DNA of 64,000 nt from Phycisphaerales bacterium (GCA_020852515.1 JADZAS010000002.1:1-64000), one strand, 5' to 3'. Shown: positions 17,429 through 37,665, numbered from the stretch's first letter. Notes: generated by a model from the sequence alone, not told the origin. Numbers and translations are program-made.

Positions 17429-19108
17429 ATGCACGCACTGTTTGACGAGCGCCGCTACCTCATCCCCTTCCGCGCCAGCCTGCTGCCGCAGATCTTCTGT
17501 GACACGCTGGTGATCGGCTCGGGCGTCGCGGGTCTGCGCGCCGCCATCGCCGCCGCCGAGCACGGCGAAGTGATCCTGCTGGCCAAAGGCGACATCAGGA
17601 AATCGAGCACCGCGTGGGCCCAGGGCGGCATCGCCGCGGTGCTGGGCGCCTCCGAGCAGGCCGTGCGTATGCACGTCGAAGACACGATCGACACGGGCGG
17701 CGGGCTGTGCGATCCGGCGATTGTTGAGAGCACCATCGCGGGCGCCCGGCCGCGCATCGAGGAACTGCGCCGCTGGGGCATGCGCTTTGACGTCAACGAA
17801 GAGGGTGAAATCTCGCTGGGCCGCGAGGGCGGGCACCGCGAGTCGCGCATCCTCCACTCCGACGGCGACGCCACCGGCCGCGAACTGGTGCGCTGCCTCG
17901 GCCAGCACGTCCAGCACACCGCGCCGATCCGCGTCTTCGAGAACTGCTTTGCGCTCGATCTGTTGACCGTTTCGGACGGCGACAGCAGCCCCGTCGTGGG
18001 GGCGATCACGCACCATCCCAAGTACGGCCTGCAGATGATCTGGGCCTGGGCGACGATCATCGCCACCGGCGGCGCGGGCGGGGTCTACCGCGAGACGACC
18101 AACCCGGCGGGAACCACCGGCGACGGGATCGCCATGGCGTATCGCGCCGGCGCCGCCGCGGCCGACATGGCCTTCATCCAGTTCCACCCGACGACGCTCT
18201 ACGTCGCCGGGGCCGAGCGATCGCTCATCACCGAAGCGGTGCGCGGCGAAGGGGCGCATCTGGTCGATCGGCGCGGCGAGCGGTTCATGCTCGGCGCGCA
18301 TCCGATGGCCGAACTCGCCCCGCGCGACGTGGTGAGCCGGGCGATCATCGATCAACTGGCCGACACGGGCGATTCGCACGTGTTCCTCGATGCGCGCCAC
18401 TTCAAGCCCGGCTTCTTTGCTGAACGGTTTCCGGGCATCGCGGCCCAGCTGGCGCGTTTCGACATCGACCCCGAGCACGATCTCATCCCCGTCCAGCCCA
18501 GCGCGCATTACACCATCGGCGGGATTCACGTGGACGCGGAGGGGCGCACCAACCGCCCGGGGCTGTATGCCTGCGGCGAGGCGGCGTGCTCGCGGCTGCA
18601 CGGCGCTAACCGGCTGGCCAGCAACAGTCTGCTCGAAGGGCTGGTGCGCGGCGAGATCACCGGCCGCACCTGCGTCGAGCAGCGCGAGCCGGGCAACGGG
18701 CCGCGCGCGCCCAAGCGCATCATCAGCGACATTGCCCTCTCAGAACACGGCGGGCTCGACCTGACCGACGTCCGCTCGAGCCTGCGCAGCGTCGTGTGGC
18801 GGCACCTGGGCATCACGCGCAGCGGGCAGACGATGAGCGACGTGCGCGACATGATCGACTTCTGGGGCCGCTACACGCTGGATAAGATTTTCGACGATCC
18901 GATGGGCTGGGAAACGCAGAACATGCTGCTCGTCGCGGCGCTGATCTGCAAGAGCGCCCTGTGGCGCCAGGAGAGTCGGGGCGTGCACAACCGCCGCGAC
19001 TTCCCCGAGTCGCGCGATGCGTTCCGCTGCCACGACGTGTGGCGCAAGGGGCAATCCGAGCCGGCGACCATCGACGTGCCGCCGCTGGCGACGGGAGCCA
19101 CGACGTGA
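17429..19108 (+). CDS. nadB: L-aspartate oxidase
   Basis: FAD enzyme oxidising L-aspartate to iminoaspartate, the first step of de novo NAD synthesis, handing its product to quinolinate synthase. 559 aa, normal for the family. An N-terminal Rossmann motif (VIGSGVAGLRAAIAAAEHG) binds FAD; SSTAWAQGGIAAV, HRESRILHSDGDATGRELV, QFHPTTLY, VRGEGAHLVD and the C-terminal GLYACGEAACSRLHGANRLA are typical of NadB within the fumarate reductase/succinate dehydrogenase flavoprotein superfamily. No nadA or nadC is present nearby. The stop codon overlaps the GTG start of the next gene (GTGA), implying translational coupling to a small lipoprotein. Confidence 0.93.
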   Translation: MHALFDERRYLIPFRASLLPQIFCDTLVIGSGVAGLRAAIAAAEHGEVILLAKGDIRKSSTAWAQGGIAAVLGASEQAVRMHVEDTIDTGGGLCDPAIVESTIAGARPRIEELRRWGMRFDVNEEGEISLGREGGHRESRILHSDGDATGRELVRCLGQHVQHTAPIRVFENCFALDLLTVSDGDSSPVVGAITHHPKYGLQMIWAWATIIATGGAGGVYRETTNPAGTTGDGIAMAYRAGAAAADMAFIQFHPTTLYVAGAERSLITEAVRGEGAHLVDRRGERFMLGAHPMAELAPRDVVSRAIIDQLADTGDSHVFLDARHFKPGFFAERFPGIAAQLARFDIDPEHDLIPVQPSAHYTIGGIHVDAEGRTNRPGLYACGEAACSRLHGANRLASNSLLEGLVRGEITGRTCVEQREPGNGPRAPKRIISDIALSEHGGLDLTDVRSSLRSVVWRHLGITRSGQTMSDVRDMIDFWGRYTLDKIFDDPMGWETQNMLLVAALICKSALWRQESRGVHNRRDFPESRDAFRCHDVWRKGQSEPATIDVPPLATGATT

Positions 19109-19656
19109 TCCGCCAGCGTGCGATTCAGTTCGTGCTCGTTGCCGTCGCCTCCGGCGGGCTGTGGGGCTGCCAGGTGGAACTCTCGCGGCGCGACCACTGG
19201 GCCGACAAGGCGAAGCAGTTCAACGAACTGAGCGAGGGCAAGGCGCGCCCGGCCGATGCGCACGCTCCCGAACTCCGCATCGAACACACGGACGGCACGG
19301 TGACGCTGAACTGCTACCTGCCCGAGCACCTCGTGCTGCACCTGCGCAACTGCCTGGCGATGGCGGAAGTCGATCTCATTTTTGAGCAACTGGTCTCGAA
19401 GGCCGCCAAGCAGGTCTACATCGATGCGCAGCGCGACCCGCACGAGGCGGTCGATTGGCTGATCACGAACCAGCGCGACGTGATCATGATGCTCAACCGC
19501 ATGACCGGCGGCCTGAGCAGCCCCGACGTCACCTGGCACAGCGCCGGCGACACATACCGCATGGAGATCGCCACGCCGGTGCGCTCCACCCTGCGGTTCA
19601 CGAAACTCGATCTCATCCGCGAAGACGGCCAGTTCAAACTGCTGCTCATTTCATGA
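19105..19656 (+). CDS. Small predicted lipoprotein
   Basis: 183 aa from a GTG that overlaps the nadB stop by 4 bases. The N-terminus has a hydrophobic stretch and a lipobox-like LWGC (about residues 19-22), so export and lipidation are likely. The mature part has a beta segment (LRIEHTDGTVTLNCYLPE), a helical centre and a last strand (LDLIREDGQFKLLLIS). No family recognised. Its stop overlaps the next start (ATGA), so nadB, this gene and the next form a tightly coupled set, though a role in NAD synthesis does not follow from that. Confidence 0.65.
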   Translation: MIRQRAIQFVLVAVASGGLWGCQVELSRRDHWADKAKQFNELSEGKARPADAHAPELRIEHTDGTVTLNCYLPEHLVLHLRNCLAMAEVDLIFEQLVSKAAKQVYIDAQRDPHEAVDWLITNQRDVIMMLNRMTGGLSSPDVTWHSAGDTYRMEIATPVRSTLRFTKLDLIREDGQFKLLLIS

Positions 19657-20024
19657 GGATTTTCATGGCCAAGGGCTGGTTCAGAAATGCGTTCGCGGTG
19701 GATCCACCGGGCCCGGCTGAGCCGACGGAGGAGCAGAAGCCGGTCGTCGAATGGGCCTGCAGGGAGATTGCGCGGCGGCGGATGGCCATGCCGGGCGTCG
19801 TGCTGCTGGAGATGACGCGGCCGCTGAACTACGTCGCGGCCAGCACGATGCACGTTTTTCAGCCGGTGTTCTGGTCGATCATGCGGCAGCAGACGTACGA
19901 CAATTACCGCCACTTCTCGACGTTCCTCGAGCAGCGCGGCTCGATGGAGTACATGATCAACCGCATCGAAGAACTCGAAGCCGAAGCCGAGGCGAAGAAG
20001 CGAGAGGCGAAGAAGGCGGAGTGA
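19653..20024 (+). CDS. Small hypothetical protein with charged C-terminus
   Basis: 123 aa from ATG 19653, overlapping the previous stop (ATGA); a second ATG at 19665 is possible. The central part is hydrophobic and aromatic (VLLEMTRPLNYVAASTMHVF, QPVFWSIMRQQTYDNYRHF) and may associate with the membrane. The last 25 residues are Glu/Ala/Lys-rich and helical. No known domain. It closes the nadB gene set and is followed at once by a large palindrome. Confidence 0.6.
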   Translation: MRIFMAKGWFRNAFAVDPPGPAEPTEEQKPVVEWACREIARRRMAMPGVVLLEMTRPLNYVAASTMHVFQPVFWSIMRQQTYDNYRHFSTFLEQRGSMEYMINRIEELEAEAEAKKREAKKAE

Positions 20025-20309: not shown

Positions 20310-22124
20310 ATGAAAAACCTCGATCCTGACAAGATAAAGGTGATCCTGGCGACCGACTGCGGCTCCACGACCACCAAGGCCATCCTCATCCAGAAAGTCG
20401 GCGACAGTTACCGCCAGACCCATCGCGGCGAGGCCCCCACCACCGTCGAAGAGCCCTTTGCCGACGTCACCATGGGCGTGATCAACGCCGTGACCGAAGT
20501 CGGCGAACTGGCCGGGCGGCGGTTCGTCGATGATGACGGCAAGCTCATCCATCCCGCCACCGAGACCGAAGGCTGCGACATCTACATCTCCACCTCTTCG
20601 GCCGGCGGCGGGCTGCAGATGATGGTCGCCGGCGTCATCAAGGAGATGACCGCGGCCAGCGCCAAGCGGGCGGCCCTGGGCGCCGGGGCGATCGTCATGG
20701 ACACGATCGCCAGCAACGACAAGCGCAAGCCCCACGACCAGATCCAGCGCATCCGCGAACTGCGGCCGGACATGATCCTCATCTCGGGCGGAGTGGACGG
20801 GGGCAACACGACGCAGGTGGTGCAGATCGCCGAACTCATCGCTCCGGCCAAGCCGCGACCCCGCTTCGGCGGCAAGTACCGCCTGCCGATCATCTTTGCG
20901 GGCAACAAAGACGCCGCTCCGCTGGTGAAAGAGACCTTCGATGAAGACGTCGAACTGTCCATTGTGGACAACCTGCGGCCGGTGCTCGAATACGAGAATC
21001 TCGGTCCGGCGCGCGACGCGATCCACGACGTGTTCCTCGAGCACGTCATGGCCCACGCGCCCGGGTACGACAAACTGATGACGTGGACCGATGCGCCGAT
21101 CATGCCCACGCCAGGCGCGGTGGGCAACATCCTCCAGACGATCGCCAACACGCAGGGCATCAACGCCGTGGGCGTGGACATCGGCGGCGCGACGACGGAC
21201 GTGTTCAGCGTGTTCGACAAGACGTTCAACCGCACGGTGAGTGCGAACCTGGGGATGAGTTACTCGATCAGCAACGTGTGCGCCGAGGCGACGATGCCCA
21301 AGATCCTCCGCTGGGTGCACTTCGACATGGACGAGCGCGAACTGCGCAACCGGGTGAAGAACAAGATGATCCGCCCGACGACGATCCCGCAGACGCGCGA
21401 GGCGCTGATCTTTGAGCAGGCGGTGGCGCGCGAGGCGCTGCGCCTGGCGTACCAGCAGCACAAGGAATTCGCCACGACGCTCAAGGGTGTGCAGCAGCAG
21501 CGCACTGTCGGCGACACGTTCAGCCAGCAGGTCGGCGGGCAGACGATCGTGGACAACATGAAACTCGACCTGCTCGTGGCGTCCGGCGGCGTGCTCAGCC
21601 ACGCGCCGCGCATGAACCAGACCGCCATGCTGCTCATTGACGCGTTCGAACCTGAAGGGTTCACGACGCTGGCCAAGGATTCGATCTTCATGATGCCGCA
21701 CCTGGGCGTGCTGGCCGAAGTGCACCCGAAGGCGGCAACGGAGGTCTTCGAGAAGGACTGCCTGATCTACCTCGGCACGTGCGTGGCGGCCAAGGGCACG
21801 GGCAAGGAAGGCAGGCCGTGCTTCTCGTACGAGATCAAGGGAAGCAGCCTCAACGAGCGCGGCGAGATGATGTATGGCGATCTGAAGCTCTTCCCGCTCG
21901 GTCAGGGCGAAACGGCGATGGTCGCGATCGATCCGGCCAAGGGATTTGATTTCGGCAACGGGCCCGGGAAGCGCATCGAGCGCCAGGTCAAGGGCGGCAC
22001 GGTCGGGCTCATTCTCGACGCGCGCGGCCGCCCGCTGGCTCTCCCGGAAGATCGCGCCACCGGTCAGGCCACGATGAAACGCTGGGTCGAGGCGATGAAC
22101 ATGTATCCGGGGGAGAAGAAGTAA
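20310..22124 (+). CDS. MutL-family (GlmL-like) ASKHA ATPase
   Basis: 604 aa, related to the MutL/GlmL proteins first linked to glutamate (methylaspartate) mutase, not to the mismatch repair protein of the same name. The ASKHA (actin/Hsp70-type) nucleotide site looks complete: phosphate-1 DCGSTTTK (16-23), phosphate-2 GVDIGGATTD (288-297) and the adenosine segment LLVASGGVLS (421-430). The family signature STSSAGGGLQMMVAG (94-108) with AALGAGA and MILISGGVDGGN is clear. ATG 20310 is preferred to the GTG at 20304. It is the first gene of a likely six-gene operon to 27132. No glutamate mutase subunit or other B12 enzyme is encoded in the window, so the classic role is doubtful here. It may drive conformational change in the membrane proteins that follow. 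Confidence 0.85.
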   Translation: MKNLDPDKIKVILATDCGSTTTKAILIQKVGDSYRQTHRGEAPTTVEEPFADVTMGVINAVTEVGELAGRRFVDDDGKLIHPATETEGCDIYISTSSAGGGLQMMVAGVIKEMTAASAKRAALGAGAIVMDTIASNDKRKPHDQIQRIRELRPDMILISGGVDGGNTTQVVQIAELIAPAKPRPRFGGKYRLPIIFAGNKDAAPLVKETFDEDVELSIVDNLRPVLEYENLGPARDAIHDVFLEHVMAHAPGYDKLMTWTDAPIMPTPGAVGNILQTIANTQGINAVGVDIGGATTDVFSVFDKTFNRTVSANLGMSYSISNVCAEATMPKILRWVHFDMDERELRNRVKNKMIRPTTIPQTREALIFEQAVAREALRLAYQQHKEFATTLKGVQQQRTVGDTFSQQVGGQTIVDNMKLDLLVASGGVLSHAPRMNQTAMLLIDAFEPEGFTTLAKDSIFMMPHLGVLAEVHPKAATEVFEKDCLIYLGTCVAAKGTGKEGRPCFSYEIKGSSLNERGEMMYGDLKLFPLGQGETAMVAIDPAKGFDFGNGPGKRIERQVKGGTVGLILDARGRPLALPEDRATGQATMKRWVEAMNMYPGEKK

Positions 22125-22208
22125 GCACTAGGCACTAGGCACTAGGCACTAGGCACTAGGCACTAGGCACTAGGCACTAGGCACTAGGCACTAGGCACTG
22201 GGCATTAC
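22125..22208. repeat. Heptamer tandem array (GCACTAG)10
   Basis: Ten perfect copies of GCACTAG start one base after the MutL-like stop codon, followed by two degenerate copies (GCACTGG, GCATTAC). The next 80 bases contain degenerate TTTGTGTC/CTTCGTGG units similar to the reverse complement of those at 145-178. The array fills the only sizeable gap in the operon. Confidence 0.9.
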
Positions 22209-22309
22209 GCATGGCGCCAGTCGGCAGGCGAGTGTTCTCTTTGTGTCACTTTGTGCTCCTTTGTGTCCTTCGTGGTGAGTATTCGACGAGTTCGCGCGGA
22301 AAGTAAACG

Positions 22310-23437
22310 ATGGCTAACGCATATACACCTGGACTTAAAGTTACTCCGAAGATGACCTTTCGAACGCGGCGGGTGCTGCCGATTCCGGGCGATGTGCTCG
22401 TGAAGGTCGGCGACAAGGTCAAGGCGCGCGACGTCGTCGCCCAGACCTTCATGCCCGGCGACGTCACGCCCATCAACATGGCCAACCTGCTCTCCATGCC
22501 GCCCGGGGACGTGCCCGGCTGCATGATCGCGAAAGAAGGCCAGACGATCGCCGTGGGCGACGTGCTCGCCCGCTCGCCGGGCATCTTCGGCTTCTTCAAG
22601 AACGAGATCAAATCCAAGGTGGCCGGCACCATCGAGACGATCTCGCCCGTGACCGGCCAGGTCATCGTGCGCGGCGCGCCGATTCCCGTACAGGTGGGCG
22701 CCTACCTGAATGGCGCCGTCGCGGAGGTCATTCCCAACGAAGGCGTGGTGATCGAGGCCGAAGTCGCCTTCATCCAGGGCATTTTCGGCATCGGCGGCGA
22801 GACGTTCGGCCCGATCCGCATGGCCTGCAAGCAGCACGCGCAAGAACTCACCGAAGACCTCATCACCGACGACATGAAAGGCTGCGTGATCGTCGGCGGA
22901 GCACGCATGCACTACACCGCGGTGAAGAAGGCGATCCGCGTGGGCGTGGCGGCGATCGTTTCCGGCGGCATCGACGACGCCGACTTGAAGGAAGTGCTCG
23001 GCTATGACCTGGGGGTGGCCATCACCGGCTCCGAGCAGGCGGGGATCACGCTCATCATCACCGAGGGCTTTGGCGACATCGCCATGGCGGAGCGGACGTT
23101 TGAGCTGCTCGACAGCCACAAGGGCCACGAGACGGCCGTGAACGGCGCTACCCAGATCCGTGCGGGCGTGATGCGGCCGGAGATCGTTGTTCCGCTCTCG
23201 GCCGTGGCGGCGGACAAGGCCGCCGGCGCTCGCAACGTGGCGGGGCTGCTGGAAGTCGGTACGATGGTGCGGATCATTCGCGATCCGTACTTCGGGCTGA
23301 TCGGCGCGGTGAACAACCTGCCGCCCGAGCCGGCGGTGCTCGGCTCAGGTTCCAAGGCCCGGGTACTTGAAGTCCGCTTCGACTCGGGAGAAACTGTTAC
23401 CGTGCCGCGCGCGAACGTTGAACTCATCGAAGGGTAG
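22310..23437 (+). CDS. Predicted barrel-sandwich/KOW-domain protein of the MutL operon
   Basis: 375 aa without signal peptide. Residues about 10-150 contain repeated biotinyl/lipoyl-like beta segments (VLVKVGDKVKARDVVAQ, AVGDVLARSPGIFG, SKVAGTIETISPVTGQVIVR) but no lysine in an MKM-type context, so it is probably a structural barrel rather than a cofactor carrier. The middle (CVIVGGARMHYTAVKKAIRV, GVAAIVSGGIDDADLKEVLG) looks like an alpha/beta domain. The C-terminus from about 315 (MVRIIRDPYFGLIGAVNNLP then VEVRF-like strands) fits a KOW fold. It lies 185 bp after the MutL-like gene across the heptamer array and 7 bp before the next gene. Function unknown; it could link the ATPase to the membrane partners. 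Confidence 0.7.
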   Translation: MANAYTPGLKVTPKMTFRTRRVLPIPGDVLVKVGDKVKARDVVAQTFMPGDVTPINMANLLSMPPGDVPGCMIAKEGQTIAVGDVLARSPGIFGFFKNEIKSKVAGTIETISPVTGQVIVRGAPIPVQVGAYLNGAVAEVIPNEGVVIEAEVAFIQGIFGIGGETFGPIRMACKQHAQELTEDLITDDMKGCVIVGGARMHYTAVKKAIRVGVAAIVSGGIDDADLKEVLGYDLGVAITGSEQAGITLIITEGFGDIAMAERTFELLDSHKGHETAVNGATQIRAGVMRPEIVVPLSAVAADKAAGARNVAGLLEVGTMVRIIRDPYFGLIGAVNNLPPEPAVLGSGSKARVLEVRFDSGETVTVPRANVELIEG

Positions 23438-23444
23438 GTGATGG

Positions 23445-24530
23445 ATGCACAATCCGATCCGGTGGATGGGGCGCTGGTCAGCGGCGTCTGCACTCGTGCT
23501 GCTCGCCGCTTTGGCGCTTGGCGGCCCATGTCAGCCGGCCTGGTCGCAGGATCCTGAGCCGACCGCCGAGCCGACCATTCAGGAGCCGACGGCCGAAGCA
23601 CCGACCGAGGGTGAGCAGGCGCTTGCCCCCGACGAGGCAGCCGCGGCGCCCGTCGAGGCGGGGGCTGAAGCGACGACAGGCGCAACCCCGGCCCGCAGCG
23701 AGTCGATGCAGTGGATCGATGAGCACATCTTCGATCTCGATCGCGGCTGGCTGCTGCTCGTGGTGCTCATCTTCTGCGGCTCGGTGGTGTTCTGGATCGC
23801 GCACGCGAGATCGGGCAGACCGGTCAAGGTGCGCAAGATCGCGGGGCTCGAGGCCGTGGATGAAGCCGTCGGCCGCGCCACCGAGATGGGCCGCAGCGTC
23901 CTGTACATTCCGGGCATCCAGGACATCAACGAAATTCAGACGATCGCGTCGATGACGGTGCTGGCGCGCGTGTCGCGCACGGCCGCGGAGTACGACGCCA
24001 AAGTCGAGGTGCCCACGGCCCGGTCGCTGGTGATGACCACGGCCCGCGAGACGGTGCAGGCGGCGTATCTTTCCGCCGGCCGGCCCGATGCCTACAACCA
24101 GGACCTCATCTACTACGTGACGGACGAGCAGTTCGGCTACGTCGCGTATCTGCAGGGCCTGATGGTGCGCGAGAAGCCGGCGGCGTGCTTCTACATGGGC
24201 GCGTTCTATGCCGAGTCGCTCATTCTCGCCGAAACGGGCAACTCGATCGGCGCCATCCAGGTGGCGGGCACGGCCATGCCCGCACAGTTGCCGTTCTTCG
24301 TCGCCGCGTGCGACTACACGCTCATCGGCGAGGAGTTCTTTGCCGCCTCGGCGTACCTGTCCGGCTCACCTGAAGAACTCGGGAGCCTCAAGGGCCAGGA
24401 CATGGGCAAGATGATCGTCGCGGGCCTGCTCATTCTGGGCGTGATTCTCGCCACACTCGCCTCCATCTTCCCGAAGAGCGACGTGCTGCAGAACATCGTC
24501 AATTACCTCATGCAAAACGTGCTCACCTGA
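23445..24530 (+). CDS. Membrane protein, DUF6754-like
   Basis: 361 aa. Signal-like N-terminus (about 1-34), a Pro/Glu/Thr/Ala-rich low-complexity linker (36-85), a transmembrane segment at about 101-119, a conserved-looking cytoplasmic domain (RKIAGLEAVDEAVGRATEMG, YIPGIQDINEIQTIASM, YVTDEQFGYVAYLQGLM, AETGNSIGAIQVAGTAMPAQ) and a C-terminal transmembrane segment at about 324-342. The central domain resembles DUF6754, a family of unknown function; this name rests on memory of the family pattern. It is followed 13 bp later by a polytopic membrane protein. Probably a core membrane component of whatever the MutL-like ATPase serves. Confidence 0.65.
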   Translation: MHNPIRWMGRWSAASALVLLAALALGGPCQPAWSQDPEPTAEPTIQEPTAEAPTEGEQALAPDEAAAAPVEAGAEATTGATPARSESMQWIDEHIFDLDRGWLLLVVLIFCGSVVFWIAHARSGRPVKVRKIAGLEAVDEAVGRATEMGRSVLYIPGIQDINEIQTIASMTVLARVSRTAAEYDAKVEVPTARSLVMTTARETVQAAYLSAGRPDAYNQDLIYYVTDEQFGYVAYLQGLMVREKPAACFYMGAFYAESLILAETGNSIGAIQVAGTAMPAQLPFFVAACDYTLIGEEFFAASAYLSGSPEELGSLKGQDMGKMIVAGLLILGVILATLASIFPKSDVLQNIVNYLMQNVLT

Positions 24531-24543
24531 GGAACCCCTCCCG

Positions 24544-25278
24544 ATGAAACGAACAGCGCCTCTGCTCATCGCGTCGATCGCCGGGTTCGTCATGATCGTC
24601 GCGTACTTCATCCCCAGGACCCAGACGTGGGGCGAGGACGTCTCGGTCTGGTTCGACATCCTTGCGGCCATCGCGTTCATCCTCGGCGGCGGCAACCTGC
24701 TGCGGGTGCAGCTCAAAAAGATCTCCGACCGCCGGCCGGGCTGGGCGTACGCGGCCATCACGCTGATCGCCTTTGTGGTGATGCTCACGTGCGGGCTGCT
24801 CAAGATCGGCTCGCATCCCAATGAGCAACACCCGGCGTTCGCATGGAGCGGCACGTACAACCAGACGGGCACGCCGTTCTGGTGGATGTACGAGTACCTC
24901 ATCGTGCCGCTGCAATCGACGATCTTTGCGATGCTCGCGTTCTACGTCGCCAGCGCCGCGTTTCGCGCGTTTCGCGCCAAGAACGTCGAGGCGATTCTGC
25001 TGCTGGGAACGGCGTTCGTCATCCTGCTCGGCCGCACGGCCGCGGGAGTCTTCCTCACCGACTTCATCCCTTCGGACGTGCTCATCGAGGATCCGACATT
25101 CATGCAGCATCTGATCTCGACGCTGCGGCTCGAGAACCTCACGGTCTTCCTCATGGACATCTTCAACACCGCCGGCAACCGGGCGATCATGATCGGCATC
25201 GCGCTGGGGACGGCGTCGGTGTCGCTCAAGATCCTGCTCGGCGTCGACCGTTCGTACCTCGGTTCCGGAGAGGATTGA
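24544..25278 (+). CDS. Polytopic membrane protein of the MutL operon
   Basis: 244 aa. About six hydrophobic segments are visible: residues 6-23, 34-52, 64-83, 118-140, 147-163 and 215-236. A short loop after the third carries HPNEQHPAFAWSGTYNQTGT, and a loop before the last contains charged residues. No transporter or enzyme signature is recognised. The spacing to the genes on either side is 13 bp and 4 bp, so it belongs to the operon. Function unknown. Confidence 0.65.
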   Translation: MKRTAPLLIASIAGFVMIVAYFIPRTQTWGEDVSVWFDILAAIAFILGGGNLLRVQLKKISDRRPGWAYAAITLIAFVVMLTCGLLKIGSHPNEQHPAFAWSGTYNQTGTPFWWMYEYLIVPLQSTIFAMLAFYVASAAFRAFRAKNVEAILLLGTAFVILLGRTAAGVFLTDFIPSDVLIEDPTFMQHLISTLRLENLTVFLMDIFNTAGNRAIMIGIALGTASVSLKILLGVDRSYLGSGED

Positions 25279-25282
25279 TCCC

Positions 25283-26158
25283 ATGTTCGAGTTGTTCAGA
25301 AACATCGACCGCCGCTGGATCTTCCTGATGATGTTCCTGTGCGTGGCGGTGCCGATTTTCGTCATCGGCAAGTACAAGACGACCTTCCCCGAGAAGCCGC
25401 TCGTGCTGGCGACGAACGTCTTCAACGAGATTGACAACCTGCCCGACGGCTCAAGGGTGCTGCTCGCCTTCGACTACGACCCAGGCAGCGAGGGCGAACT
25501 GGGCCCGATGGCCACGGCGTTTACGCGGCACTGCATCGAGAAGCATCACAAGATGTACTTCATCGCCCTGTGGCCCCTCGGGCGGCAGATGATCGACAAC
25601 GCCGTAAACCGCATCATCAAGGCGGATTTCCCCGAACTCCGCTACGGCGAGGATTACGTCAACCTCGGGTTCAAGGCGGGCAACGAGGGCGTGATCAAGG
25701 TCATCGTCACCGACCTGCGAAAGCTCTACACGACCGATTCGCGCGGCACGGCGACGGATGAGATCCCCATGATGCAGGGCATCGAGAACATCCAGCAGAT
25801 GGACCTGGTCATCAACGTTTCGGCCGGCTATCCGGGCACCAAGGAATGGGTGCAGTACGCCGTCACCCCCTTCCCCGACCGGATCCGCCTCGTCGCCGGC
25901 TGCACGGGCGTGCAGGCGCCGCTGCTGTATCCGTACATCCCGCAGCAGCTGCCGGGCCTGCTCGCCGCGATCAAGGGCGCTTCGGAGTATGAGTCGCTCG
26001 TGATGGCCAAGTACGGCGGAGAGAACATCAGCGGCAAGTATCTCGAGGCCCAGCGCCGCATGGGGCCGCAGCTCGTCGCCCACCTGCTCATGATCTTCCT
26101 GATCATCGCGGGCAACGTGATCTACTTCGTGGAGCGCAGAAGAGGAGTCCGCCAATGA
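25283..26158 (+). CDS. Bitopic membrane protein of the MutL operon
   Basis: 291 aa, with transmembrane segments near both ends (about 12-29 and 263-282) and a soluble middle domain of about 230 residues. The middle has an alpha/beta character (VLLAFDYDPGSEGELGPMAT, MYFIALWPLGRQMIDNAVNR, NEGVIKVIVTDLRKLYTTDS, MDLVINVSAGYPGTKEWVQY). No known family recognised. The stop codon overlaps the next start (ATGA). The preserved domain between two anchors suggests a periplasmic or cytoplasmic partner domain for the complex. Confidence 0.65.
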   Translation: MFELFRNIDRRWIFLMMFLCVAVPIFVIGKYKTTFPEKPLVLATNVFNEIDNLPDGSRVLLAFDYDPGSEGELGPMATAFTRHCIEKHHKMYFIALWPLGRQMIDNAVNRIIKADFPELRYGEDYVNLGFKAGNEGVIKVIVTDLRKLYTTDSRGTATDEIPMMQGIENIQQMDLVINVSAGYPGTKEWVQYAVTPFPDRIRLVAGCTGVQAPLLYPYIPQQLPGLLAAIKGASEYESLVMAKYGGENISGKYLEAQRRMGPQLVAHLLMIFLIIAGNVIYFVERRRGVRQ

Positions 26159-27132
26159 AGCCGGAGAACAGGTGGTGGGTGATTCTCTTTGCCATTGGAG
26201 CAGTGCTGCTCATCGCCCGCTGGTTCGTGATGCCCGACGGCTTTGGCCGGGCCTATGTCAAGGCCGTCCCCCAGGCCGTGGACGCCGAGAATCCAGACGG
26301 CCGGTGGGTCATCTACGAGCAAGCCCCCATGGCGGACTATCTCGACGCCGAGCGGACCAACGCGGATCAGTCGGTCTACGGACCGAGCGTGTCGCGCACG
26401 CTCGGCACATGGATCGCGGCTTTGCTCACGCTCTTCGTGCTGTCGTTCGTCATCCGCGACAACCCTCTGTACAAGGTTGCTGAGTCGATCTTCATCGGCG
26501 TGAGCGCGGCGTACTGGATGGTGACGGGCTTCTGGGACACCATCGTGCCCAACCTGCTGGGCAAACTCGCGCCGGGCCTGCTTCGGGACTGGGCCGTGCC
26601 CGGCCTGGGCGACGATCAGCATCCCGAACTCGCGTACCTCGTTCCACTCATTCTCGGCATCATGTTGCTGTGGCGGCTCTCGCCTGTGGGCGGGTGGATC
26701 AGTCGCTGGCCGATGGCGTTCATCATCGGCACGTTCTGCGGCCTGCGCCTGATGAGCTTCCTGCACGCGGACTTCCTCACGCAGATCCGCAACACCATTG
26801 TCTCGCTTTACGTCGTGGACAACGGCTCGTTTGACGCCTGGCAGTCGCTCAAGAACCTCATCCTAGTCGTCGGCGTGTTGTGCTGCCTGGTGTACTTCTT
26901 CTTCTCGCTCGAACACAAGGGCCTGGTGGGCAACACGGCGCGGGTGGGCATCTGGTTCCTCATGATCACCTTCGGCGCTGCGTTCGGCTATACGGTCATG
27001 GGCCGCATCGCGCTGCTGGCCATCCGGATCGAGTTCCTCATGGACGACTGGCTCTGGCTCATCGATCCGACGAACAAGCGCCTCCTCGCCGAAGCGGCTG
27101 GCTTCTTCCTGCCTCTGTTTGGCATGGGATAA
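26155..27132 (+). CDS. Polytopic membrane protein, last gene of the MutL operon
   Basis: 325 aa, starting in a 4-base overlap with the preceding gene. About seven hydrophobic segments: residues 7-25, 82-100 and 108-126, then four more between about 160 and 290. A periplasm-facing loop at about 26-80 is rich in charged and aromatic residues (YEQAPMADYLDAERTNADQS). No transporter signature. A strong hairpin terminator follows at 27169-27206, ending the operon. Confidence 0.65.
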   Translation: MKPENRWWVILFAIGAVLLIARWFVMPDGFGRAYVKAVPQAVDAENPDGRWVIYEQAPMADYLDAERTNADQSVYGPSVSRTLGTWIAALLTLFVLSFVIRDNPLYKVAESIFIGVSAAYWMVTGFWDTIVPNLLGKLAPGLLRDWAVPGLGDDQHPELAYLVPLILGIMLLWRLSPVGGWISRWPMAFIIGTFCGLRLMSFLHADFLTQIRNTIVSLYVVDNGSFDAWQSLKNLILVVGVLCCLVYFFFSLEHKGLVGNTARVGIWFLMITFGAAFGYTVMGRIALLAIRIEFLMDDWLWLIDPTNKRLLAEAAGFFLPLFGMG

Positions 27133-27168: not shown

Positions 27169-27206
27169 CGCCGCCGGCTGCCAAAGCAGCCGGCGGCGTT
27201 CGTTGT
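27169..27206 (+). terminator. Rho-independent-type terminator after the MutL operon
   Basis: A perfect 12-bp GC stem (CGCCGCCGGCTG / CAGCCGGCGGCG) with a 6-nt loop CCAAAG, followed by TTCGTTGT. It lies between convergent genes and could serve both, but the T-rich tail is on the plus side. Confidence 0.75.
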
Positions 27207-27253: not shown

Positions 27254-28570
27254 TCACCCGCGCACTTTCATCACCAGCAGCGTCTGGTCGTCGGCGGGTT
27301 CGACGCCGGCTTCGTGTTCGAGCAGGGCCGTCGTCACCGAGTTGACCACGCAGCCCGGCTCGCCTGAGCAGTGATGCAGCGCCTCGTCGAGCCGCGAGAG
27401 GCCGAACATCTCGCGCTTCGGGTTGAACGACTCGATGACGCCGTCGGTGTAGAGCACGAGCGTGTCGCCCACTTCCAGTTCCGTCTCGCTCACGGAAAGG
27501 TGCAGTCGCGGCTCGATGCCCAGCGGCAGGCCGGACTCGACCACCAGCGGCATCACCGGCGAATCGGCGCCGGGCTTCTTGAGGCGCGGCGGGTGGTGAC
27601 CGGCCGAGGCGAGGCGCACGGTGCGGCTGGCCGGGTCGTAGCGCATGCATAGAGCCGTGACAAACGTGCGATCGATCCCCTTGCACAGGATCTGCTCGTT
27701 GAGATGTTCAAGCACGGCGTCGGGATCGGGGCTGGCGCTGGCCGGATAGGCGTGCACGATGGACTGCATCATGGCCATGATGACCGCGGCCCGCGCACCG
27801 TGCCCGGCGACGTCGGCGATGATCGCCCCCCATGGCTTTGTCGCGTTGCCGATCCCGGGCGCATCGAGTTCGGTGAAGTCGTAGTAGTCTCCGCCGGCCT
27901 GCTCACACGGCTGGTAATGCGCGACGATCTCCATCTGCGGAATGTCGGGCAGGCGGCTGGGCAGCAGCGAGCGCTGGAGTTGAGCCACCTCGTGGAGTTG
28001 GGCGGTGATGCGGGCGTTGAGTTCCTCGACCTTGCGAGCCGTGACCATGTTGCGCGTCGCCTGGCCGAGCAGGTTGCTCACGAGCACCATGAGTTCGACT
28101 TCCGAGGCGCTGAAGCCTTCGGGAGAGGTGCGGAAGAGCAGGTTCCAGTTCAGCGGCTCGCCACTGTCAAAAAGCGGCACGGCCAGGCACGAGCCGAACT
28201 GGGCCACGTCGTCTCCCAGCGCCGGATCGCTGCGCAGATAGAGATTCGAAAACACGCGCGGATGCGGCGACTGGATCGCCTCGCCGATCAACCCGCCGGT
28301 GTACGTCTCGAGGCTCGCCCACTCGCGCCAGGGATCGATCGCCTTGCGCATGGGCCGCTCGCCGTACATTCGGCGCGTGACCTTGTAGCGGCCCGGCGGC
28401 AGCGTGCGCACCGAGACGGACACGAGCGCATCGAAGGGCATGAAGTGCCGGATGCCCCGGCCGGCGTGGCGGCCGATCTCGGCGGGATCGTCCGAGCGGT
28501 TGATGGCCCGCAGTGAGCGGATCAGGCCCTCGAGTCGCGCCGAGTCGCTTTCAGATTCGATCATCGCCAT
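27254..28570 (-). CDS. GAF-like plus PP2C/SpoIIE-type serine phosphatase (RsbU-like)
   Basis: 438 aa from ATG 28570 (the frame is open upstream but Arg/Pro-rich and not protein-like). Residues about 10-185 look like a GAF sensor domain (FDALVSVSVRTLPPGRYKVT, SCLAVPLFDSGEPLNWNLLF). A short coiled-coil linker (NARITAQLHEVAQLQRSLLP) leads into a SpoIIE/PP2C domain with the metal-binding acids in GGDYYDF, IADVAGHGARAAV and VLYTDGVIES. The LQRSLLP segment is typical of RsbU-type regulators that dephosphorylate anti-anti-sigma proteins. No partner-switch sigma, RsbV or RsbW gene is near. Likely a cytosolic stress or signalling phosphatase. Confidence 0.85.
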   Translation of the reverse strand: MAMIESESDSARLEGLIRSLRAINRSDDPAEIGRHAGRGIRHFMPFDALVSVSVRTLPPGRYKVTRRMYGERPMRKAIDPWREWASLETYTGGLIGEAIQSPHPRVFSNLYLRSDPALGDDVAQFGSCLAVPLFDSGEPLNWNLLFRTSPEGFSASEVELMVLVSNLLGQATRNMVTARKVEELNARITAQLHEVAQLQRSLLPSRLPDIPQMEIVAHYQPCEQAGGDYYDFTELDAPGIGNATKPWGAIIADVAGHGARAAVIMAMMQSIVHAYPASASPDPDAVLEHLNEQILCKGIDRTFVTALCMRYDPASRTVRLASAGHHPPRLKKPGADSPVMPLVVESGLPLGIEPRLHLSVSETELEVGDTLVLYTDGVIESFNPKREMFGLSRLDEALHHCSGEPGCVVNSVTTALLEHEAGVEPADDQTLLVMKVRG

Positions 28571-28591
28571 GACGCCACGATGGTAGGGCGC

Positions 28592-28625
28592 AGGAAAATC
28601 GCAGCGCCGCTCGGGCGGCGCTGCG
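28592..28625 (-). terminator. Terminator of the rpmI-rplT transcript
   Basis: On the minus strand a perfect 10-bp stem (CGCAGCGCCG / CGGCGCTGCG, arms at 28600-28609 and 28616-28625) with a 6-nt loop is followed by ATTTTCC. It lies 31 bp after the rplT stop codon and before the phosphatase start. Confidence 0.75.
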
Positions 28626-28655
28626 TTTGAAACTCGGGTGGAGGCATGAAGCCGG

Positions 28656-29030
28656 TCAGGCGCTGGCGACCGTCGCCGTCGAAGACGCCTTGGCCATCTC
28701 GCAGATCTGGTCGAAGGCGCCCGGATCCTCGATGGCGATCTGGCTGAGCATCTTGCGATTGAGCAGGATGCCGGAGAGCTGGGCGCCATTGATGAACTGG
28801 CTGTAGCGCAGCCCGCGCATCTTGCACGCCGCGGAGATGCGGGTAATCCACAGGCGGCGGAAGTCGCGCTTGCGGGCCCGGCGGTCGCGGCGGGCGAAAA
28901 CGCCGGCGCGGGTCAGGGCGTTTTTGGCCTGCTGCTTGTGGCGGGACTTGGTTCCGTAGTAACCGCGGGCTTCGCGGAGAATTCGCTTGCGCGCCTTGTT
29001 GCGGGCAGCGCCCTTGCGTGTACGAGGCAT
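28656..29030 (-). CDS. rplT: 50S ribosomal protein L20
   Basis: 124 aa, basic, and matching L20 throughout: MPRTRKGAARNKARKRILRE, GYYGTKSRHKQQAKNALTRA, RDFRRLWITRISAACKMRG, YSQFINGAQLSGILLNRKML. It binds 23S rRNA early in large-subunit assembly and in some bacteria represses its own operon. It is the second gene after rpmI (gap about 120 bp) and is followed by a clear terminator. Confidence 0.97.
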   Translation of the reverse strand: MPRTRKGAARNKARKRILREARGYYGTKSRHKQQAKNALTRAGVFARRDRRARKRDFRRLWITRISAACKMRGLRYSQFINGAQLSGILLNRKMLSQIAIEDPGAFDQICEMAKASSTATVASA

Positions 29031-34521: not shown

Positions 34522-34983
34522 GATCTCGAATCCTTTGGCCCGGCTAATGCAACGTCACAACGCGAATCCCACCCAAGGGGTAGTATACCAGAGGACTCCG
34601 TGATTCCGGGGCTTGGCAAGCCCAGATCGCGGTTTTTTCAAGCACGGCAATCCCCCGTCACAACCAGCGGCTCATGCGGGGACTGGAGGAGCCACGGCTC
34701 GATCCAGCCGGTCACCGTCTCACGGGCGGCGGCGGCCAATTCGGGCAGCACCTCGGCGAATTCTTCTGCAGCGTCCTGCACGGCGCCGGAATGACCCGTC
34801 TCGCCCGAATTCTGCAAAAGCATCAACGTGCCGCTCTCTGCCAATGCTGCATCGCCGCGACTGCGGCGCGTCGAGGGTGCTGGTGGGTCGCAGTTATGGG
34901 TTCCCTGACACCGCCGCCACCTGCCGCGCTCCGTGATGGGCCTTGCCTCGGCCCGCAAACAGGCTCCTAAACTGTCCGCGATC
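34522..34983. other. Gap upstream of mutS, possibly with a small minus-strand gene
   Basis: About 460 bases. The most gene-like stretch is a minus-strand frame at 34638-34823 (61 codons from ATG 34823, beginning MLLQNSGETGHSGAVQDAAE). It has a balanced composition but no known homolog and no clear ribosome-binding site. Otherwise I see nothing except a short run TTTTTT near 34633. Confidence 0.3.

Positions 34984-37665
<2,682 letters not shown>

Follow-up and report, generated by a model that had tools for sequence, protein, structure and literature searches.

A MutL-family ATPase encoded with four membrane proteins in a conserved gene set: a possible ATP-driven inner-membrane machine

Introduction

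GlmL, the MutL-family accessory protein of glutamate (methylaspartate) mutase, has been described as a chaperone that reactivates glutamate mutase (PMC4682846). In this study, we analyzed a stretch of 64,000 nt from a Phycisphaerales bacterium (GCA_020852515.1 JADZAS010000002.1:1-64000, referred to as the window), in which the locus at 20310-27132 encodes an ATPase, A, of the same Pfam family (PF13941) with the same ASKHA nucleotide motifs. Unlike GlmL, which has approximately 460 aa, A has approximately 600 aa with a C-terminal extension and is not accompanied by GlmS or GlmE; its partners are the soluble protein B, the small protein X, and the four membrane proteins C, D, E, and F, and it belongs to a separate clade. 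A likely shares the ATP-clamp mechanics of the cobalamin-enzyme reactivases and Hsp70-like ASKHA ATPases, whereas its client is apparently a membrane complex.

The N-terminal part of B has a weak likeness to RnfC/NqrA and biotinyl barrel-sandwich proteins. However, B is below the curated cut-off of RnfC, has in addition a middle domain that is conserved and a KOW-like end, and, unlike those proteins, shows neither an Fe-S nor a biotin site. C is a full member of DUF6754 (PF20539), a domain to which Pfam gives no function; the Pfam record does not mention that it regularly occurs together with D, E, F, and MutL, as shown here. No description of the gene set was found in the open-access literature searched, in which neither "DUF6754" nor "methylaspartate mutase accessory protein" appeared in any paper.

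Results

Gene organization of the locus

The initial annotation had described an operon of six genes closed by a strong terminator. All six ORFs were confirmed on the + strand at the coordinates listed in Table 1, and the intergenic gaps from A to F were exactly 185, 7, 13, 4, and -4 bp as claimed, whereas a conserved seventh gene, X, had been overlooked. When the six genes A to F were compared with those of an independent locus (L053), the codon changes were mostly at position 3 in every gene, indicating that these are real genes under purifying selection; L052, whose A is 99% identical to that of the window, was not counted as an independent locus. The hairpin following F is strong, but its T tail is poor (TTCGTTGTGA), and terminator-like sites in the window were no commoner than in shuffled sequences (5 found against 4.1 expected), so that its role as a terminator is suggestive only.

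Table 1 Features of the locus, with positions counted from the first nucleotide of the window.
Feature	Position	Strand	Description	Basis
X	19665..20024	+	small protein, 119 aa, upstream of ATPase A	iterative profile family
A	20310..22124 (alternative start GTG 20304)	+	ASKHA ATPase, Pfam MutL family, long form, 604 aa, C-terminal extension	
B	22310..23437	+	soluble; barrel-sandwich (RnfC/biotinyl-like) + middle domain + KOW-like C-terminus	
C	23445..24530	+	DUF6754 membrane protein; Rossmann-like domain, predicted to be cytosolic, flanked by two TM helices	
D	24544..25278	+	membrane protein, ~6 TM helices	averaged hydropathy
E	25283..26158	+	two TM helices around Rossmann-like domain, probably extracytoplasmic	AlphaFold2, hydropathy/charge
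F	26155..27132	+	polytopic membrane protein, ~6-7 TM helices; final cassette gene	averaged hydropathy
Hairpin	27169..27198	+	13-bp stem 3' of F, possible terminator	scan

Convergent to the operon lies a gene for a SpoIIE-type phosphatase with a GAF domain (27257-28789), and a similar FHA-GAF-SpoIIE protein is encoded near D at the locus L145. The window also contains a complete DNA mismatch-repair MutS gene (34933-37662), which is unrelated to the "MutL" ATPase, although the name invites confusion.

Conservation and co-occurrence of the gene set

Among 99 loci, the genes C, D, E, and F were found in this fixed order in 121 intact cassettes on 89 strands, 21 of which carried multiple cassettes. 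In most loci holding both A and B, these two genes were located upstream in the same direction, and A, B, and C were contiguous in 41 of the 48 AB cases. DUF6754 was detected in 50 of 199 Planctomycetota genomes, and the matches listed in a scan of the open collection came from Planctomycetota, Zixibacteria, Gemmatimonadota, Latescibacterota, Neomarinimicrobiota, Cloacimonadota, Acidobacteria, Coatesbacteria, Stahlbacteria, and others, namely at least 8 phyla according to the record titles, which can be wrong for metagenome bins. The gene set was also found in Gimesia and Thalassoglobus genomes, including Thalassoglobus neptunius KOR42. DUF6754 was absent from 14 well-known control genomes. 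It was also absent from all 8 sampled genomes of the same order and all 4 of the same class, suggesting that the set is dispensable or laterally moved.

MutL accompanied DUF6754 in 45 of the 50 positive Planctomycetota genomes, whereas only 8 of the 149 negative ones had it (Fisher p ~1e-30, uncorrected for kinship). It was present in 21 of 25 DUF6754-positive families of this phylum, and the five positive genomes without MutL were assemblies of 320 to 1140 contigs. The same association was observed in other phyla, where 22 of the 23 genomes carrying the set contained MutL, and in Gemmatimonadota (12 of 12 DUF6754-positive genomes). Several Planctomycetaceae genomes retain A, B, C, and E at widely separated sites, and some of the inspected loci of these dispersed genomes also contained D and F. 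One exception was a genome (G153) in which A, B, and X were present but C and E were not found. With respect to the check proposed in the initial annotation, the set holds together, or is co-retained when dispersed, across many phyla, and GlmE was absent from all 24 genomes examined for it.

ATPase A and the B12 mutase question

A matched the Pfam MutL profile at 2e-128 over 450 of its 450 positions, and the motifs TDCGSTTTK, VDIGGATTD, and SGGxLSHAP were invariant in 17 diverse members, whose mean column identity across phyla was 67%. The claim of an intact MutL-family ASKHA ATPase is thus borne out. The scores of A were nevertheless below the cut-offs of the NCBIfam GlmL equivalog (232 vs 475 bits) and of TIGR01319 of the glmL family (178.5 vs 204.05).

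Based on the family name, A might be regarded as an ordinary GlmL whose B12 mutase is encoded at another site, with the membrane genes as incidental neighbors, and B12-binding domains are indeed present elsewhere in the genome of the window, as they are in nearly every genome. However, GlmE (PF06368) was found in 0 of 24 genomes with the gene set, namely that of the window and 23 relatives, and no B12-binding domain was matched on the contig of the window, in agreement with the initial annotation, which had seen no mutase or B12 gene here. The initial annotation had held that co-occurrence with B12 mutases only would speak against its proposal; in a quick maximum-likelihood tree, a branch with an SH-aLRT of 97 separated the 55 membrane-linked MutLs from the longer related forms and from all mutase-linked forms. 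The order among the mutase-linked forms is unsure because several of these rows are partial or long-branched. The MutLs from genomes without the C-D-E-F quartet, which include textbook glmS-glmL-glmE loci, adjoin a B12-binding subunit (L134), a methylaspartate ammonia-lyase (L135), or GlmE (L136), and these three lie outside the membrane-linked clade. Together with the score far below the GlmL equivalog cut-off and the linkage and co-retention over many phyla, these findings led us to reject A as a B12-mutase helper; the ordinary-GlmL reading is already largely refuted and retains hardly any probability.

Other arrangements of MutL genes were also observed. A third type with longer ORFs (up to ~830 aa; L139:6275-8749, L140:7310-9817, and L141:700-2808) occurs in genomes that also carry the membrane set, but at other sites. 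A paralogous A-B pair without C to F nearby was found at L137:7391-10332 and L138:2001-5017, again in genomes with the full set. At L131:7765-10538, a short MutL follows a gene that we take, by sequence reading, to be PrpF-like, and no mutase was seen alongside.

Membrane proteins C, D, E, and F

All four proteins were supported as membrane proteins, in accordance with the initial annotation, by hydropathy and, for C and E, additionally by predicted structures. C matched PF20539 at 7e-123 (409 bits against a gathering score of 27). D, E, and F had no Pfam or NCBIfam family above the cut-off, and D and F had no PDB match; their helices (Table 1) were counted from hydropathy averaged over 123 homologues of D and 118 of F. 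In the AlphaFold2 models, the domain of C (residues ~130-307) had a pLDDT above 90, with a mean of 84 for the whole protein, and the mean for E was 95.9. The positively charged termini of E suggest an N-in/C-in orientation; from averaged hydropathy and charge, the domain of C is probably cytosolic and that of E extracytoplasmic.

Neither model had a Foldseek match at E<=0.001, the values for C being above 0.01. With VIA-align, the top structures for the C domain were Sir2, CODH epsilon, and transhydrogenase domain III (Z 11.9-9.4; the best over 142 residues with an rmsd of 3.5 and 11% identity), all of them DHS-like NAD/FAD-binding folds in SCOP. A nucleotide-binding role of C is only a lead, since Foldseek had no significant match. 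The E model aligned with MT0777 (Z 9.3) and TrkA (Z 8.7), near the range of common Rossmann arrangements. Homology between the C and E domains was considered and rejected, as the profile comparison gave a probability of 9% over a TM stretch only.

Most relatives of C have an extracytoplasmic Fn3-like domain at the place where C of the window has an Ala/Pro-rich linker; the C profile matched Fn3 of titin at 5.6e-33, and Pfam found no Fn3 in C of the locus L033. Insertions were also seen in the other proteins. At L015:2707-3747, an FHA domain (Pfam FHA, 8e-09) is inserted in D; the loop that holds it is predicted to be extracytoplasmic, a position that fits the predicted topology poorly. In the same loop, D of some Planctomycetaceae (L145 and L150) has an insert of ~350 residues matching no known family. 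E at L043:4075-6009 has HEAT/PBS-lyase repeats inserted in the middle of the extracytoplasmic domain.

Soluble proteins B and X and the neighboring genes

The barrel/KOW description of B stood in part: such matches were found, but all were weak and below threshold. In Pfam these were RnfC_N (19.4 bits against a gathering score of 25.6), Biotin_lipoyl, and KOW, and no Pfam or NCBIfam family was above the cut-off; against PDB profiles, the RNAP beta' barrel-sandwich and the Spt5/NusG KOW were matched, all at E>0.03. The mean column identity of B over 45 members was 57%, the middle domain being conserved, and no cysteine was present among the conserved columns.

X was found by clustering the flanking ORFs of the 99 loci, and an iterative profile gave a family of 41 ORFs including that of the window. 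It is usually located 3-270 bp upstream of A (285 bp in the window), and directly upstream of C in a few loci where A is elsewhere. X had no Pfam or PDB match; its motifs 'HAFAVDPPG' and 'P..LE..RPLN..GSQ' are conserved. In 18 loci, though not in the window, a further upstream gene encodes Y, a protein with 2 TM helices and a weak match to bacterial PH, and a lipoprotein-like ORF (19105-19656) was left out because it was found only in the near-identical KLAP200 genome.

Across phyla, none of the neighboring genes, examined as flanking ORFs of the loci, names a substrate. Seven Phycisphaerae loci are followed by genes that are presumably plsX-fabH-fabD-like fatty-acid synthesis genes by sequence reading, four loci are preceded by an FtsY-like gene, TatD/ExbBD-like genes occur in a few, and a PPDK-like gene is a neighbor in Zixibacteria. 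Each of these is lineage-bound, and therefore none was used as a functional clue. An anti-phage defense system was likewise rejected, the single PADLOC match being at chance level (E 0.047).

The weak RnfC_N match of B and the top VIA-align rows of C are consistent with an energy-conserving redox complex, in which B would be an RnfC/NqrA-like barrel, C and E would contribute nucleotide-binding Rossmann domains, and A would be an activase like HgdC. However, neither an Fe-S nor a flavin motif was seen in the conserved columns, no redox genes recur beside the set, the domain of E is predicted to be outside the cytosol, and Rossmann arrangements match widely. We consider a redox complex quite improbable.

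Copy number of the membrane cassette

Two or three tandem copies of C-D-E-F often adjoined one MutL ATPase gene and one barrel-protein gene, and genomes with two or three cassettes mostly had one A and one B. The copies of C in Zixibacteria (first, middle, and last) clustered according to position and not by genome: the position label changed 11 times, compared with 27 in shuffles, which as a control take no account of kinship. This clustering points to old, specialized paralogues sharing one ATPase.

The ratio of one A to many C-D-E-F copies would also be expected if A and B were dedicated assembly or repair chaperones of C-D-E-F, Hsp70/reactivase-like, standing outside the working machine and its energy source. 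Such a role matches that stated for GlmL as a reactivating chaperone (PMC4682846), and the AB and C-D-E-F genes can be unlinked. Against this, AB directly precedes C in most AB cases, as described above, and A is conserved at least as well as the membrane parts, although both observations are still compatible with a chaperone. Overall, we regard the chaperone role as unlikely but as one to be weighed seriously.

Discussion

We favor, with some confidence, one ATP-driven inner-membrane machine in which A and B, possibly with X, are the soluble ATPase part and C-D-E-F the membrane part. The evidence counted for it was the gene set and its co-conservation, the intact ATPase motifs, the separation from glutamate mutase, the predicted folds, and the variation of the extracytoplasmic additions (Fn3-like in C, HEAT in E, and FHA in D). 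The proposal of the initial annotation, that a MutL ATPase serves an undescribed membrane complex, is supported in that the genes are kept together and have no GlmE link. We infer from these computational data the physical complex of C-D-E-F with A-B, its coupling to ATP, and the topology. Because linkage is lost in some cases, a stoichiometric complex does not necessarily follow.

In the favored machine, A would bind and hydrolyze ATP in an Hsp70/actin-like clamp cycle and, through B and perhaps X, would act on C at its cytosolic Rossmann-like domain. From there, the change may be relayed via the core of ~12 TM helices formed by D and F to the extracytoplasmic domain of E and, in relatives with the Fn3 domain, also to the extracytoplasmic domain of C. 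The outcome would be transport or assembly of an envelope component, and one A and one B would serve up to three C-D-E-F paralogues. Envelope transport or biogenesis as the task is speculative and was preferred from the architecture alone.

A gene set held together over many phyla usually does something important. Of the proteins of this set, only A and C match a Pfam family above the cut-off, and for none of them is a function known in such a context. Annotation likely names the ATPase a glutamate-mutase helper, which suggests a B12 pathway that is not there. As the set is present in Gimesia and Thalassoglobus genomes, it is testable. An actin/Hsp70-fold ATPase at work in a membrane machine would be unusual, and A would provide such a case if it indeed powers the complex. 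More tentatively, and with doubt somewhat outweighing confidence, the set may represent a new class of inner-membrane machine, powered by an ASKHA (Hsp70/actin-fold) ATPase and not by an ABC, AAA+, or rotary ATPase, which would be widespread in Planctomycetota and FCB-type phyla and in which duplicated, specialized cassettes would share one ATPase.
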